A stretch of DNA of 64,000 nt from assembly GCF_900149695.1 (NCBI RefSeq), contig NZ_LT703007.1, forward strand, positions 186,001 through 250,000, given 5' to 3'. Below, piece after piece: positions 21,650 to 27,565 of this stretch (the stretch's first letter is position 1; each line of letters opens with the position of its first letter). Position numbers and translations under genes: made by a program. The notes beneath the pieces were generated by a model. It did not search any database, was not told the origin of the DNA, and saw nothing but the letters and a program-made list of their open reading frames with translations. This DNA comes from Anderseniella sp. Alg231-50 (GTDB lineage Bacteria; Pseudomonadota; Alphaproteobacteria; Rhizobiales; Aestuariivirgaceae).

Positions 21650-21824
21650 GACTTCATCTCCGTTGTTCAGATACCTGATCCGATGGAGAGTGTGTCGCCG
21701 GTGATGAAAATGCGTGTTGATCCAGATCAATCCAGCGAGACCGTTGAGCGCTCCGATTCCCGGCCACTCGCCTGATTCTCGCGATTATCACCATCACCAC
21801 AACTTAAACGTGTATTTTTAACTT

Positions 21825-21848
21825 CCAAAGCAACCCTGGGTGCTTTGG
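21825..21848. repeat. Inverted repeat CCAAAGCA / TGCTTTGG
   Basis: A perfect 8-bp inverted repeat with an 8-base spacer lies directly left of the CtrA-type site. It could be a small hairpin or a dyad operator. A short A/T run on its left side gives some terminator likeness for leftward transcription. Role uncertain. Confidence 0.35.
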
Positions 21849-21850
21849 CG

Positions 21851-21865
21851 TTAACCTGTCGTTAA
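21851..21865. promoter_or_regulatory. CtrA-type binding site TTAA-N7-TTAA
   Basis: TTAA at 21851-21854, seven bases (CCTGTCG), and TTAA at 21862-21865; both halves continue as TTAACC. This matches the full CtrA consensus known from Caulobacter and other Alphaproteobacteria. It sits 560 bases upstream of nrdJ and 200 bases upstream of the small leftward membrane protein gene, so which of the two it controls is open. Confidence 0.5.
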
Positions 21866-22028
21866 CCAAAAACTTCACCGGTTTGAAATGTGACCGGCAC
21901 TATATCTCGTGGTGTCAGCGCGGTGTTCAGAACCATGACGGTCGCGTGACGTCAGATATCTATGGATAGTTACTGCCGCAATGCCGCGGAATCGTTGAGG
22001 TTCGGGGGCGAATCGTGGCTATCTCCGG

Positions 22029-22060
22029 TTATCCACAGAACCTGTCAAGGCTGTGGATAC
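22029..22060. promoter_or_regulatory. Pair of DnaA-box-like sites in inverted order upstream of nrdJ
   Basis: TTATCCACA at 22029-22037 is a perfect match to the DnaA box TTATNCACA. TGTGGATAC at 22052-22060 is the reverse complement of GTATCCACA, one mismatch. Together they form the inverted repeat TATCCACAG / CTGTGGATA with a 12-base spacer. DnaA is known to regulate nrdAB in E. coli, so direct DnaA control of nrdJ is plausible; a replication-origin role is not supported because there are too few boxes and no AT-rich unwinding element beside them. Confidence 0.55.
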
Positions 22061-22072
22061 TATATGTTGTGT
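22057..22072. promoter_or_regulatory. NrdR-box-like site
   Basis: The 16-mer at 22057-22072, ATACTATATGTTGTGT, matches 14 of 16 positions of the NrdR box (ACACWATATAWWGTGT-type palindrome). It overlaps the second DnaA-like box. A weaker candidate (12 of 16) lies at 21897-21912. NrdR boxes are usually paired; the second partner at the normal spacing is not clear. It fits the class II reductase gene it precedes. Confidence 0.55.
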
Positions 22073-22100
22073 TAGGGTTTCGTTAACACACTAGGTATTG

Positions 22101-22422
22101 ACGAGAGCCCGCAATCGGCACTACATTCATGTGCATGGGAACGGGGCATGGGACGGCTCGGAGTTAGGGCCATCCCCAAGGTAATTTTAGTTACCGAACT
22201 CCAAGGTCTAACGATGGATAAAGCGGAGTAATACCGCACTATCCAAACGGGGAAGCTGTGACTTGTGCGTACGGGCTGGGAAGCCAGGTACGCGTGAAGG
22301 TAAAGCTTTGCTGCGAAGTCTTGTCTGTAGGGGGGCGTAAGAACAATGGGATCGCTGAAAAGCGCTTGAAAACAACAACTTGATCAATTGAAAGCAGATA
22401 GGCTGCTTTGAAGGGGAATACA
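22101..22422 (+). promoter_or_regulatory. Highly structured 5' leader of nrdJ (candidate cis-regulatory RNA)
   Basis: The roughly 300 bases before nrdJ hold many nested complementary arms. GGGG-C-ATGG (22143-22151) pairs CCAT-CCCC (22170-22177); GGAGTT in that loop (22160-22165) pairs AACTCC (22197-22202), making a pseudoknot around the hairpin GGTAA/TTACC (22180-22195). Next is TGGATA-GCGG / CCGC-TATCCA (22215-22245). Then GACTT (22260) and AAGTC (22316) enclose GCGTAC-CTGG / CCAG-GTACGC (22267-22293). CGCT-GAAA-AGCG (22353-22364) has a GNRA tetraloop. AAAGCAG/CTGCTTT (22391-22409) stands right before the ribosome site AAGGGG. This density is far above chance and suggests a ligand- or protein-sensing leader; the ligand is unknown. 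No cobalamin-riboswitch core was recognised. Confidence 0.6.
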
Positions 22423-25400
22423 ATGCGGGTAGAACGGCGCTTTACAGCCGAAGGTAAAGGTCCATATGCAGGTGTGGAGTTTCGCAAGGCGACCAGCGAA
22501 ATCAAGAACCCTGACGGGTCTATCGTGTTTCAGCTCAAGGACATCGAAGTCCCCAAGGCCTGGAGCCAGGTTGCCTCCGACATCATCGCACAGAAATACT
22601 TCCGCAAGGCCGGTGTACCCGCACGGCTGAAAAAGGTTGAGGAAAATTCCGTCCCGTCATGGCTGTGGCGCTCCGTGGAAGACACAGATGCGCTGGCAGA
22701 GTTGCCTGAAGACGAACGCTATTCTTCTGAAATGTCTGCACAGCAGGTGTTCAACCGGCTGGCCGGCACGTGGACCTACTGGGGCTGGAAAGGCGGTTAC
22801 TTCGATGCCGAAGAAGATGCGCTGGCGTTTTACGAAGAGATGGTCAACATGCTGGCGACCCAGCGTTGTGCACCAAACAGCCCGCAATGGTTCAACACCG
22901 GCCTGCACTGGGCCTATGGTATCGACGGTCCCGGCCAGGGCCACCACTATGTCGACTTTGAAACCGGCAAGCTGACCAAGTCCACTTCGTCTTATGAACA
23001 CCCGCAGCCACATGCCTGCTTCATCCAGTCGATCTCCGACGACCTGGTCAATGAAGGCGGCATCATGGACCTGTGGGTGCGCGAAGCCCGCCTGTTCAAA
23101 TACGGCTCCGGTACCGGATCCAACTTCTCCTTCATCCGCGGCGAGAACGAGCCCCTGTCAGGCGGCGGCAAATCCTCCGGCCTGATGAGCTTCCTGAAGA
23201 TCGGCGATCGCGCTGCCGGCGCCATCAAGTCCGGTGGCACGACGCGCCGCGCCGCCAAGATGGTGGTGGTGGATGTCGATCATCCCGACATCGAGGCCTA
23301 TATCGACTGGAAGGTGAAGGAAGAAGAAAAGGTTGCGGCACTGGTAACCGGCTCCAAGGTCACCCAGCAGCACCTGAAGATCATCATGAAGGCGTGCGTC
23401 AACTGCGACGGCCCTGGCGATGACTGCTACAATCCAGCCAAGAACCCTGCCCTGAAGCGCGCCATCAAGGATGCGCGCAAGTCACATGTGCCTGACAGCT
23501 ACATCAAGCGCGTCCTGCAGTTTGCGGCACAGGGCTTCAAGGAAATCGAATTCGACACCTATGACACCGACTGGGACGGCGAGGCCTACCGCACGGTATC
23601 CGGCCAGAATTCCAACAACTCGGTCCGCGTGACCGACGAGTTCCTGCGGGCCGTTGAAAACGGTTCTTCCTGGGACCTGAAATGGCGCCTGCAAGACGGG
23701 GTCGCCAAGACAATCGATGCCGGCGACCTGTGGGGCAAGATCGGCAATGCGGCGTGGGCCTGTGCCGACCCGGGTATCCAGTTCCACACCACCATCAATG
23801 ACTGGCACACCTGCCCGGCCTCCGGCGACATCCGCGCATCAAACCCATGTTCGGAATACATGTTCCTGGATGACACTGCCTGTAACCTGGCGTCGCTGAA
23901 CCTGTTGACCTTCCTCGACAAGTCCAACTCGAAGTTCGACATCGAAGGCTTTGAGCACGGTGTCCGCCTGTGGACCATGGTGCTGGAAATCTCCGTCCTG
24001 ATGGCACAGTTCCCGTCCAAGGAAATCGCCAAAAGGTCCTACGAGTACCGCACGCTGGGCCTCGGCTTCGCCAATATCGGCGGCATGCTGATGACGTCCG
24101 GCATCTCCTATGACTCAGATGAAGGCCGCGCCATCTGTGGCGCCATCTCGGCCATCATGACCGGTGTGTCCTACGCAACGTCTGCCGAAATGGCCGGCGA
24201 GCTTGGCCCCTTCCCCGGCTACAAGAAAAACGCAAAGGCCATGCTGCGGGTCATGAAGAACCATCAGCTTGCCGCGCGCGGATCTTCTCAAGGCTATGAG
24301 AAGCTGGCGGTGAACCCGGTGCCACTTGACCATGCAAACTGTGCCGACAAGGACCTGGTGGCACACGCTGTTGCCGCCTGGGACCGGGCCGTGAAGCTCG
24401 GCGCCAAGAACGGCTACCGCAATGCGCAGGCCACGGTGATCGCCCCGACCGGCACCATCGGGCTGGTCATGGATTGCGATACTACAGGTATCGAGCCTGA
24501 CTTTGCCCTGGTGAAGTTCAAGAAGCTGGCCGGCGGCGGTTACTTCAAGATCATCAACCGCGCCGTGCCTGCAGCCCTGCACACGCTGGGCTACAGCGAA
24601 GGCCAGATCGAAGGCATCATCAAATATGCCGTCGGCAACGGTACGCTGTCAGGTGCTCCCGCCATCAACCATGAAACGCTGAAAGCCAAGGGCTTCACGT
24701 CCAAGGAACTGCAGATCGTGGAAGATGGCCTGGCATCGGCGTTCGATATCAAGTTCGTGTTCAACAAGTGGACGCTGGGCGAAGAATTCTGCACCAAGAC
24801 ACTCGGCATCTCCGCCGAACAGCTTGACGATTTCAACTTCTGCGTGTTGAGCCACCTCGGTTTTGCCAAGGCGGACATCGAGGCAGCCAATGTCTTCGTC
24901 TGCGGTGCCATGACGCTGGAAGGCGCACCGGAACTGCAGGACGAGCACCTGCCCGTCTTCGACTGCGCCAATCCGTGCGGCCGTCTCGGCAAGCGCTACC
25001 TGTCGGTGGACAGCCACATCCGCATGATGGCGGCAGCACAGCCGTTCATCTCGGGTGCCATCTCGAAGACCATCAACATGCCGAACGAGGCAACCGTTGA
25101 GGACTGCCAGGCGGCCTACATGCTGTCGTGGAAGCTGGCCCTGAAGGCCAATGCGCTGTACCGCGACGGATCCAAGCTCAGCCAGCCGCTCAATGCAGCA
25201 CTGATCGAGGATGAGGACGAAGACGCCGATGACATGATCGATCAGGTCGCCGCCATGCCGCAGACACAGCGGGTGGAAAAGGTCGTCGAGAAGGTCATCG
25301 AAAAGGTGCTGGCGCGCGAGCGCGAAAAACTGCCGCAGCGGCGCAAGGGCTATACCCAGAAGGCCATTGTCGGCGGGCACAAGGTCTACCTGCGCACCGG

Positions 25401-26172
25401 AGAATATGACGACGGCAAGCTTGGCGAGATCTTCATCGACATGCACAAGGAAGGTGCCGCCTTCCGCGCCATGATGAACAACTTCGCCATCGCGGTGTCG
25501 CTCGGCCTGCAATATGGCGTGCCGTTGGAAGAGTATGTCGAGGCGTTCACCTTCACCCGCTTTGAGCCTGCGGGTCAGGTCCAGGGCAACGAGGCGATCA
25601 AGAACGCCACGTCGATCCTCGACTATGTGTTCCGCGAACTGGCCGTGTCCTATCTGAGCCGCAACGACCTGGCCCATGTCGAGCCAGCCGATATTCGCTT
25701 CGATGCCATGGGCAAGGGCGAAGACGAAGGCAAGCCCGGCGCGGCGCCGTGCCCTCCAGGCGGCATGCCGGCCATGGCGGTGGCATCATCGGGCTACACA
25801 CGGCAGAAGTTGTCGGACAATGTGTTCATGATGCCGAACAGCCTGACGTCGGCAGCCATAACCAATCCGGTTGCCGCCAGCCAGTCGCGTATTGAAGCGG
25901 CCTATGTGGCAGACGGCGCGGCTGCTCTTGATGTGGCTGTCGAGATGGCGGTTGAAGCCAGCCTGCAGCCGGCAATAGAGACCGAGGAAAGCGTGGCCCC
26001 GCTGGACATCGATTCAGACGGCCAGGTGAAAACCGAAGCCGAACGCCGGGTCGAGGCGCGCATGAAGGGATATGAAGGCGACAGCTGCGGCGAATGCGGC
26101 AACTTCACCCTGCTCCGCAACGGCACCTGCATGAAGTGCGATACCTGCGGGAGTACGAGTGGCTGCAGCTAA
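22423..26172 (+). CDS. nrdJ: Vitamin B12-dependent (class II) ribonucleotide reductase
   Basis: A 1249-residue adenosylcobalamin-dependent reductase that makes deoxyribonucleotides and works with or without oxygen. Recognisable segments are [19 protein letters not shown] and [21 protein letters not shown] near the N-terminus, [21 protein letters not shown] at the active-site barrel, [21 protein letters not shown], and [18 protein letters not shown] long variable region rich in Glu/Asp is followed by a C-terminal cysteine cluster [21 protein letters not shown], which is either a zinc ribbon or the redox tail that reduces the active site. Length matches the large alphaproteobacterial NrdJ. The start ATG at 22423 has AAGGGG 6-8 bases upstream. 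It is preceded by the structured leader and the DnaA- and NrdR-like sites. Confidence 0.96.
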
Positions 26173-26206: not shown

Positions 26207-26368
26207 GTTATCAAACTTGACAGGCCAATACTCCGGTGTTGGCCATCAGCACGAGGAGAACAAAAAGTGATCATTTTTTAGGAAGAAGAAAGGGCACCGC
26301 GCTACTCGTAATAGCACGATGCCCCACATGCTTAGCCCCCAAAATTGACATACCAAGGACCTCACAAA

Positions 26369-26638
26369 ATGAGTTTACTACAAATGTTCGAGTCGGACAG
26401 CCGCAAGGTTGCCGCATGGCAAAAAGCTACAATTGTCCCCGGTTTTGACGCTTCTAGAATTAGGCGCGACAGGTTCGGCAATTACATCAGCTGGTTCGAC
26501 TATGGATTGAAAACTACCTACGGTTGGGAAATAGACCACGTCTGGCCCAGTTCACTCGGCGGCAGCGACGCCAACGGCAACCTCGCTGCGACCCATTGGC
26601 AAGCCAATAGAATAAAATCCAATAGATTTATTGGATAA
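26369..26638 (+). CDS. Small HNH-type endonuclease
   Basis: An 89-residue protein whose C-terminal half carries the HNH layout: GWEIDHVWPSSLGGSDANGN (IDH with the first metal His), then NLAATHWQANRIKSN, with the second His and the Asn/Lys of the alpha helix. The N-terminal half (AWQKATIVPGFDASRIRRDRFGNYISW) matches the beta strand region of small HNH families. The ATG at 26369 has AAGGA 10 bases upstream. Its AT content is well above the neighbours, so it was probably acquired. No partner (methylase, antitoxin, terminase) is recognisable next to it except the ImmA-like protein 160 bases downstream. Confidence 0.7.
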   Translation: MSLLQMFESDSRKVAAWQKATIVPGFDASRIRRDRFGNYISWFDYGLKTTYGWEIDHVWPSSLGGSDANGNLAATHWQANRIKSNRFIG

Positions 26639-26797: not shown

Positions 26798-27565
26798 ATG
26801 AAATCAATCAGCACAATTTCAAGAGTCGCAAATCTAGTGCGAATTAGGTTGTTTTGCTCTGATTCGTTTCCTTTACCAATCGAAATATTGCTACATCGCA
26901 TTAATGATATCGTACGCGGGGCGAAAATTATCGTCAAAACAGACAATACAATGCCTCATGACGAAGCTTATGCTGATTGCGAAGAAAAGATCATCTATCT
27001 CCGTAAGACAGTGGTCGACCAGCTTAGATCGAATAACCCGAGAGCGAGATGGACCTTAGCCCATGAGCTTGCTCACTTAGTGCTTTCTCATCGAGGCACA
27101 TTATCACGGGCAGTCACCAATTTGCGCGGCAGTCAGTCAACAGTGCGAGTTTACGAACGAGAAGCAAACATATTTGCGGAGCACTTTTTGGCCCCTGATA
27201 TGATGGTAGAGACTTGTGCGGATGCTGGAGAACTTTCAAAAAAGACCGGGATGTCCCTTTCCGCGGCACAAATCCGGTTCAACGAATTTCAAGCCTTAAA
27301 ACGTCAGGAGAAGGGCGAACTACGTGATCTGCCTGGATCGGCAAAAGCGTATCTGAAGAAGCAGATCGACAAGGGTTACAAACCGCGCCATGTCTCTGTC
27401 GACTCGATCAACGTACATTCACTTGGATCTGAGAAAGCCGCGATCGCACAAGGATATCTCGCGGAACCTTGCCCCCAATGCGGCGATAGAAAACTAGTTA
27501 GGCGATCCGGACGGATATTCTGCGAGTGTGGCTGGCCACCGGATGGTGACTTTGCGACAGATTGA
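26798..27565 (+). CDS. ImmA/IrrE-type metallopeptidase with C-terminal zinc ribbon
   Basis: A 255-residue cytoplasmic protein. The zinc site H89-E-L-A-H93 lies in WTLAHELAHLVLSHRG, and YEREANIFAEHFLAP (about 127-141) supplies the third ligand Glu, as in ImmA/IrrE peptidases that cleave repressors. The C-terminus adds a zinc ribbon CPQC...CEC (residues 225-244). ImmA proteins usually sit next to a xenobiotic-response repressor such as ImmR; none is visible here. DNA is AT-rich relative to the window. A role in a mobile element or defence is possible. The adjacent HNH gene makes a small unexplained module. Confidence 0.75.
   Translation: MKSISTISRVANLVRIRLFCSDSFPLPIEILLHRINDIVRGAKIIVKTDNTMPHDEAYADCEEKIIYLRKTVVDQLRSNNPRARWTLAHELAHLVLSHRGTLSRAVTNLRGSQSTVRVYEREANIFAEHFLAPDMMVETCADAGELSKKTGMSLSAAQIRFNEFQALKRQEKGELRDLPGSAKAYLKKQIDKGYKPRHVSVDSINVHSLGSEKAAIAQGYLAEPCPQCGDRKLVRRSGRIFCECGWPPDGDFATD

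Follow-up and report, generated by a model that had tools for sequence, protein, structure and literature searches.

The nrdJ locus and the ribonucleotide reductase genes of the genome

The analysed DNA, hereafter the window, is a stretch of 64,000 nucleotides from Anderseniella sp. Alg231-50. On its forward strand, at 22423-26172, it carries nrdJ, encoding a class II (adenosylcobalamin-dependent) ribonucleotide reductase of 1249 amino acids, which scored 2264.1 bits against the NCBIfam model PRK07562.1 (cut-off 1737). The ATG at 22423 is preceded on the same strand by a ribosome-binding site (AAGGGGA, 22411-22417). Downstream of nrdJ, a small HNH-domain frame (26345-26638) and a frame with an IrrE/ImmA-like peptidase domain (26798-27565) were found.

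Two large-subunit genes were found in the genome (G000), both of class II by NCBIfam; the second (L031:835-3210, reverse strand) belongs to another adenosylcobalamin-dependent subtype (TIGR02504, 575 bits over 399.95). The class I small subunit (PF00268) had no match in the genome, the same search being positive in 7 of 14 control genomes. With two adenosylcobalamin-dependent reductases and no class I small subunit found, aerobic DNA-precursor synthesis of this genome seems to depend on B12. Moreover, the genome has one NrdR gene (TIGR00244, 170.8 bits, cut-off 124.65).

Predicted promoter and upstream sites

A promoter was predicted by consensus scan on the forward strand at 22098-22127 (TTGACG-18-TACATT, with the -35 hexamer at 22098-22103 and the -10 hexamer at 22122-22127), and a similar spacing was seen by eye in relatives. 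Given these hexamers, the 5′ end of the RNA should lie near 22134, around 7 nt after the -10, which would leave a leader of approximately 289 bases (about 22134-22422). The original prediction had started the RNA at 22101, and this part of it fell away, as its first 30 bases (22101-22130) are predicted promoter.

Two forward-strand sites, ATACTATATGTTGTGT (22057-22072) and ACACTAGGTATTGACG (22088-22103, overlapping the -35), look like NrdR boxes, judged by eye against the consensus; they are spaced by 31 bp, about three helical turns being the spacing expected in the NrdR regulon. Similar sites precede nrdJ in relatives by eye, and the second site was also covered by the DNA search described below. 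With these two look-alike sites and an NrdR gene in the genome, nrdJ is a candidate member of the NrdR regulon. Further upstream, TTATCCACA (22029-22037, forward strand) fits the DnaA-box consensus and has a near-inverse copy, TGTGGATA, at 22052-22059; similar pairs were seen by eye upstream of nrdJ in some relatives. Between the two NrdR-like sites, the motif TTAG-N7-TTAAC (22072-22087) resembles a CtrA site. The crowding of DnaA-box-like, CtrA-like and NrdR-like sites at 22029-22103 suggests, from the sequence, cell-cycle as well as dNTP control.

A DNA search with a query beginning at 22080 covered 150 relatives, 82 of which gave a match at E<=1. Outside the genus, the better matches spanned only about query bases 1-30, that is, the promoter block. 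All 30 loci fetched from this search carry nrdJ by protein search, and the promoter block lies upstream of nrdJ wherever the leaders were read; of the site cluster at 22029-22103, the portion from about 22080 is thus conserved before nrdJ in relatives.

Parts and predicted fold of the leader

All the pairing arms listed in the original prediction were found in place by a sequence check. The candidate leader lies between the promoter (a consensus prediction only) and the start codon of one gene, on the same strand, and relatives look alike by eye. At the 5′ end expected for the RNA stands a box, CAUGGGAACGGGGC (22134-22147), recognized by eye, and similar boxes (CAUGGnnGAGGGGC and CAAGGnnGnGGGGC) occur in other genera. 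The consensus fold then gives a helix P2 (GGGG 22143-22146 with CUCC 22199-22202) enclosing two hairpins. P2 had a pair probability of 0.01-0.12 in the single-sequence fold, and shows no covariation because it is invariant in all five genus sequences. Hairpin A (22150-22176) has a GGGA/UCCC base, a GGCUC/GGGCC top and the loop GGAGUUA; it appears in the consensus fold, and its base had a mean pair probability of 0.18-0.30 in the pseudoknot-free fold. Hairpin B (GGUAA/UUACC, 22180-22195), followed by GAACUCC, reached 0.95-0.99. Next comes P4 (GGAUA/UAUCC with GCGG/CCGC inside, 22216-22244; probability 0.98-1.0), followed by AAACGGGGAA; one of its pairs is changed on both sides within the genus, and by eye other genera have a hairpin in the corresponding position. 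P6 (GCGUAC 22267-22272 with GUACGC 22288-22293, nesting GGCU[GGGA]AGCC) is given by both the genus alignment and the fold. Overall, hairpin B, P4 and P6 had mean pair probabilities of at least 0.94 in the pseudoknot-free fold.

Two further hairpins lie nearer to the gene. The CGCU-GAAA-AGCG hairpin (22353-22364, probability 0.59-0.90) is kept in three of the five genus sequences by eye, so that it does not stand as a conserved element. The 7-bp hairpin AAAGCAG/CTGCTTT (22391-22397 with 22403-22409, probability 0.99) adjoins the ribosome-binding site, and in genus leader L005 its place is taken by a CGAGGG/CCCTCG hairpin (by eye).

The pseudoknot of the original prediction, GGAGUU (22160-22165) with AACUCC (22197-22202), competes with P2 for the same CUCC (22199-22202). 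Its arms are invariant in four of the five genus sequences, and the fifth loses two of the six pairs, keeping 4 bp; they were not found by eye in leaders of other genera of the family, and the genus alignment scores about the same with the pseudoknot as without it. As a conserved element, the pseudoknot is therefore not supported.

The minimum folding energy of 22096-22422 corresponded to z = -2.61 (1 of 100 shuffles as low), and that of the opposite strand to -2.75 (0 of 100). Among 51 of 52 leaders (all but L201), the mean z was -1.29 in the sense versus -0.81 in the antisense direction, 12 versus 8 falling below -2. Since the antisense strand folds nearly as low, folding energy alone is weak evidence for structure in the leader.

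A short upstream frame runs from AUG 22129 or 22135 (one frame) to UAG 22165-22167, and control by a leader peptide was weighed for it. The frame is open in four of the five genus sequences, but L005 and the leaders of the sister genus g5 lack an AUG there, and other genera have frames of other lengths and residues (all by eye). This reading was rejected as extremely improbable.

Conservation of the leader within the genus

Across the window's genus and family, nrdJ has a long leader in this position. Of six genomes available for the genus, five gave the leader. The leader DNA is 80-93% identical in three other genomes of the genus and matches over 97 bases in a fourth (leaders L002, L003, L004 and L005; L034 is a record of the same genome as L003). 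In the genus alignment (five sequences, 35 pairs in five helices), 90.2% of the cells were paired, and three of the 35 pairs were changed on both sides, a count that 52 of 500 shuffles also reached. Covariation inside the genus is therefore too weak to prove the listed helices. The comparison was widened with 20 more stretches from the family (19 with an nrdJ leader and L213 without one) and 80 from the order.

Search against known RNA families

The Rfam comparison proposed along with the original prediction gave no credible match to the leader at gathering or permissive thresholds. With Rfam 15, the window had no match at the gathering score, and the region 21800-22600 had none at E 10, including the cobalamin riboswitch RF00174. 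The sole match for 22090-22430, to an lncRNA on the antisense strand at E 1.9, is spurious. Among related loci, 18 had no match at the gathering score, and 20 further ones at E 5 had two spurious matches only. A canonical B12 riboswitch in the nrdJ leader was rejected accordingly, in agreement with the first reading of the sequence, which saw no classical cobalamin riboswitch core; canonical riboswitches of this family are present elsewhere in the same genome, where RF00174 has two clear matches (E 5.1e-36 and 3.8e-23).

An nrdJ RNA motif has reportedly been described by Weinberg et al. 2017 (NAR 45:10811). The original prediction had left membership in such a motif undecided, and no match to it was obtained in the window or in the 38 related loci (18 at the gathering score and 20 at E 5). 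That the Rfam copy used contains this motif is deduced from PMC8388888, where it is listed for Streptomyces with other Rfam predictions. Among the literature matches listed, judged by title or by the start of the abstract, there was no report of such a leader. The window leader is thus a structured RNA that Rfam 15 did not match and not a described riboswitch.

Covariation of nrdJ leaders in the sister genus

Leaders of g5, the sister genus of the window's genus in the same family, were used for a covariance model (R1) built from eight leaders, in which the helices P1, P4 and P6 were entered manually. In the unfitted g5 alignment (A3), 6 of 24 pairs were changed on both sides, which 23 of 500 shuffles equalled; the paired cells, the cells changed on both sides and the covariation score were each reached by none of the 500 shuffles, and in the number of further pair types the alignment did not exceed its shuffles (226 of 500). 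In the model-fitted alignment (A6, 22 g5 sequences), 17 of 24 pairs and 49 cells were changed on both sides, and 90.6% of 470 cells were paired; no shuffle was as high on any of five measures, and slid controls gave 31-61% paired cells and at most five pairs. The A6 figures are inflated, because the alignment was fitted to the model and its members were chosen, namely 22 g5 loci matching R1, leaving out L010, L017, L022, L131, L135, L202-L207 and L070 (the latter having the same leader as L018). With the same caveat of a fitted and chosen alignment, the A6 pairs comprised 62 G-U versus 6 A-C cells out of 470, and this excess of G-U indicates an RNA of the sense strand. Plain MAFFT alignments were excluded from the pair counts (A1, 14 g5 leaders; A2, 12 others; A5, nine leaders drawn from the window's genus and from elsewhere in the family), A1 and A5 being visibly misaligned in hairpins, and a custom structure-aware aligner was used for architecture only.

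The g5 nrdJ leaders thus contain covarying helices. The covariation asked for by the original prediction thus has a mixed outcome: it was found in this sister genus, and in the window's own genus the signal was weak (3 of 35 pairs, matched by 52 of 500 shuffles). The same data bear on a reading in which only the DNA is conserved, through the promoter and NrdR sites, and the structure of the leader is incidental. Such a reading would draw on the promoter block being the strongest DNA conservation across genera and on the weakness of the folding energy; it is strained for g5 by the covariation and the G-U bias, and the fact that matches of a model from the window's genus (R2, below) fall in nrdJ leaders also argues against it, so that we hold it to be very improbable.

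When R1 was run against the window and 99 of 193 loci, 25 matches were obtained at E<=10, of which 21 fell below 0.001; all 21 were g5 nrdJ leaders and 13 of them had not been used for training. The g5 leaders L010, L017, L022 and L135 were missed, and L131 scored 8.6 bits only. In 19 further loci, L208, L206 and L212 fell below 0.01. Across 69 genomes of the family, 23 matches had E<0.01, 22 of them in nrdJ leaders (14 of the 22 untrained); these nrdJ-leader matches cover 22 of the 37 g5 genomes, and the other 15 had no match below 0.01. The only match below 0.01 outside nrdJ leaders in the 69 genomes was on contig G017:C64. Weak matches outside nrdJ were L215, L216 (inside a coding frame) and L217 (mostly between listed frames).

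Genome G017 holds a second g5 leader core (L214:3562-3650; P4 hairpin and ACAGGGTTTGTCGAACAC; R1 E 1.6e-7 in the genome), located directly upstream of a hicA/hicB toxin-antitoxin pair (Pfam PF07927 and PF15919) and lacking a match in Rfam.

Relation of the window leader to the leaders of the family

With its filters off, R1 gave only short matches of up to 1.2 bits in 21800-22600. A second covariance model (R2) was built from five leaders of the window's genus only. Searched against 98 other loci (159 kb) up to E 10, R2 matched L021 (E 0.0012), L208 (0.041), L199 (0.091) and L201 (0.91); each of these four matches falls within an nrdJ leader and has its orientation. Unfiltered, in 16 selected loci, the best 5 of 47 matches (L208, L199, L196, L201 and L195) lay in leaders on the right strand with E 0.0027-0.1, L194 standing among the background at E 1.4; some of the R2 alignments pair poorly. 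In the 69 genomes, R2 recovered the nrdJ leader in each of the five genus genomes and a partial contig copy in one of these, other matches being G040:C15 (E 0.015) and G057:C198 (E 0.155).

By eye, L194, L195, L196 and L201 show the 5′ box (CAUGGnnGAGGGGC and variants), a B-like hairpin with UCC behind it, and P4 with its subsequent G-rich box. A script applied to 16 leaders found equivalents of hairpin B with different paired letters, followed by UCC, in three of them (L194, L195 and L196; pair probability 0.77-0.99); by the same rule the hairpin was absent from the other 13, which had other hairpins or none listed. One motif of g5 occurred in 16 of 34 g5 leaders, in none of 6 from the window's genus and in 2 of 13 others of the family. 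Since R2 matches fall in nrdJ leaders and the box, hairpin B, P4 and the G-rich box recur, the window leader is probably, with moderate confidence, a member of a family-wide and fast-changing RNA. As R1 has no convincing match in the window, its homology to the g5 leaders rests on the modest and rough E-values of R2.

Beyond the family, the sole hint was the L090 leader, which R1 matched at E 0.24. The motif GTYRAACRC occurred outside the family in 6 of 151 leaders in the sense direction (five of them from Bradyrhizobium) and in 6 in the antisense direction. The pattern CAGG-N{3,12}-GTYRAACRCNGG was tried and rejected: its hits, in 227 of 397 genomes, were judged by eye to be about as numerous per genome as those of the reversed control.

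Furthermore, 16 Bradyrhizobium-like and related loci (L054, L059, L060, L065, L068, L072, L077, L085, L089, L091, L092, L097, L098, L099, L101 and L102) carry a TTGAC hexamer 364-492 nt before nrdJ. These have a long leader with a consensus fold of its own.

Possible modes of action

The central claim of the original prediction, a long structured leader on nrdJ, was supported; the leader has no Rfam match, and related nrdJ leaders covary. On balance, and somewhat beyond an even judgement, we favour reading these nrdJ leaders as a new RNA family that is structured, evolves fast, probably regulates in cis and lies under an NrdR-type promoter. Transcription, cis action and regulation by the leader are deduced from the arrangement of these elements. 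Transcription from a promoter with NrdR-type sites would give the nrdJ mRNA a leader of about 289 bases, folded as a series of helices (hairpins A and B with the G-rich box at the 5′ end, P4, a G-rich box and P6); the ribosome site would lie in a short region of its own after them. Acting in cis, the leader would most likely determine how much NrdJ is made once the gene has been transcribed, as a level of control under NrdR. The candidate steps are translation, decay of the RNA and Rho-dependent termination, and a scan found no intrinsic terminator.

The leader could alternatively be a new class of riboswitch, whose 5′ domain would bind a small molecule, such as adenosylcobalamin or a dNTP, and thereby switch the translation or transcription of NrdJ. 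A multi-helix domain before a single metabolic gene would suit it, as would the reductase inventory: since only class II large subunits and no class I small subunit were found, NrdJ output must follow the supply of cofactor and dNTPs. Moreover, in the minimum-energy structure computed from 22134 the ribosome site is paired with UCCCC (22173-22177), and a truncated RNA is predicted to pair the same UCCCC with the GGGG box after P4 (22249-22252), an alternation that looks like a switch in these model folds. The CCGUG of g5 leaders has two alternatives, pairing to a CACGG upstream of it (94.5% of 110 cells) or taking part in P6. However, the CACGG/CCGUG helix showed no covariation, its score being reached by 177 of 500 shuffles, and across 45 leaders the complementarity between ribosome site and leader was not above that of shuffled controls (mean z 0.04; 8 of 45 below -1), with a middling predicted accessibility of the site (mean 0.47-0.60 by group). 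An anti-ribosome-site switch as a conserved feature was rejected on this basis. Against the riboswitch also stand the canonical cobalamin riboswitches elsewhere in the genome and the lack of a long invariant unpaired stretch common to alignments A1, A2 and A5, which a ligand pocket should leave. A riboswitch is therefore unlikely in our view, and its more specific form, a new class sensing adenosylcobalamin or a deoxynucleotide and gating NrdJ as a second control below NrdR, is more doubtful still; of the B12, deoxynucleotide or metal signals thought plausible in the original prediction, a ligand such as adenosylcobalamin or a dNTP is possible but unsupported.

The leader might instead be a passive structured 5′ untranslated region, protecting or insulating the messenger with its helices kept and no signal sensed. 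The fast sequence change with helices kept in g5, the hairpin beside the ribosome site in the genus (by eye) and the failure to find either a conserved switch or an intrinsic terminator would all agree with this, but the length of the leader, its recurring 5′ box and the G-rich box after P4 (by eye) suggest more than insulation. We regard it as a serious yet somewhat unlikely explanation.

Autogenous control by NrdJ, or binding of another RNA-binding protein, would need only a fast-evolving structure with short recurring boxes. A class II reductase of the Bradyrhizobium phage BDU-MI-1 (L219:1501-4971), 62% identical to the window NrdJ, has no leader, as the preceding gene ends where its start codon begins; this single leaderless copy lends itself to control by a bound protein and fits a regulatory role of the nrdJ leader more generally. 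We consider this explanation quite improbable. With no conserved sequestration of the ribosome site, intrinsic terminator or covarying alternative helix, we commit to a cis-acting structured leader for which no signal is named.

To our knowledge, descriptions of how class II ribonucleotide reductases are controlled centre on the promoter, through NrdR. In a lineage whose DNA-precursor supply seemingly relies on B12-dependent enzymes, a structured leader would suggest that control also acts after transcription; it offers a covarying RNA family without a match in Rfam 15 and a concrete RNA for the question of cobamide or dNTP binding. Were the riboswitch reading true, it would provide an RNA-based second control below NrdR in bacteria apparently dependent on class II reductases.

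Comparison with known systems

Like the cobalamin riboswitch RF00174, the window leader precedes a B12-related gene; it differs in having no match to that family at E 10, whereas the same genome has two clear matches elsewhere. With the nrdJ RNA motif it shares being a candidate structured RNA associated with nrdJ; the motif differs in being listed with the Rfam predictions for Streptomyces (PMC8388888). Finally, the arrangement resembles the NrdR-regulated nrdJ promoter of Pseudomonas aeruginosa, which has NrdR-type boxes (PMC4409342), in that two putative boxes of this type precede nrdJ in the window and NrdR is present in the genome. The control described there for P. aeruginosa is transcriptional, whereas in the window the predicted promoter is followed by a long structured leader.
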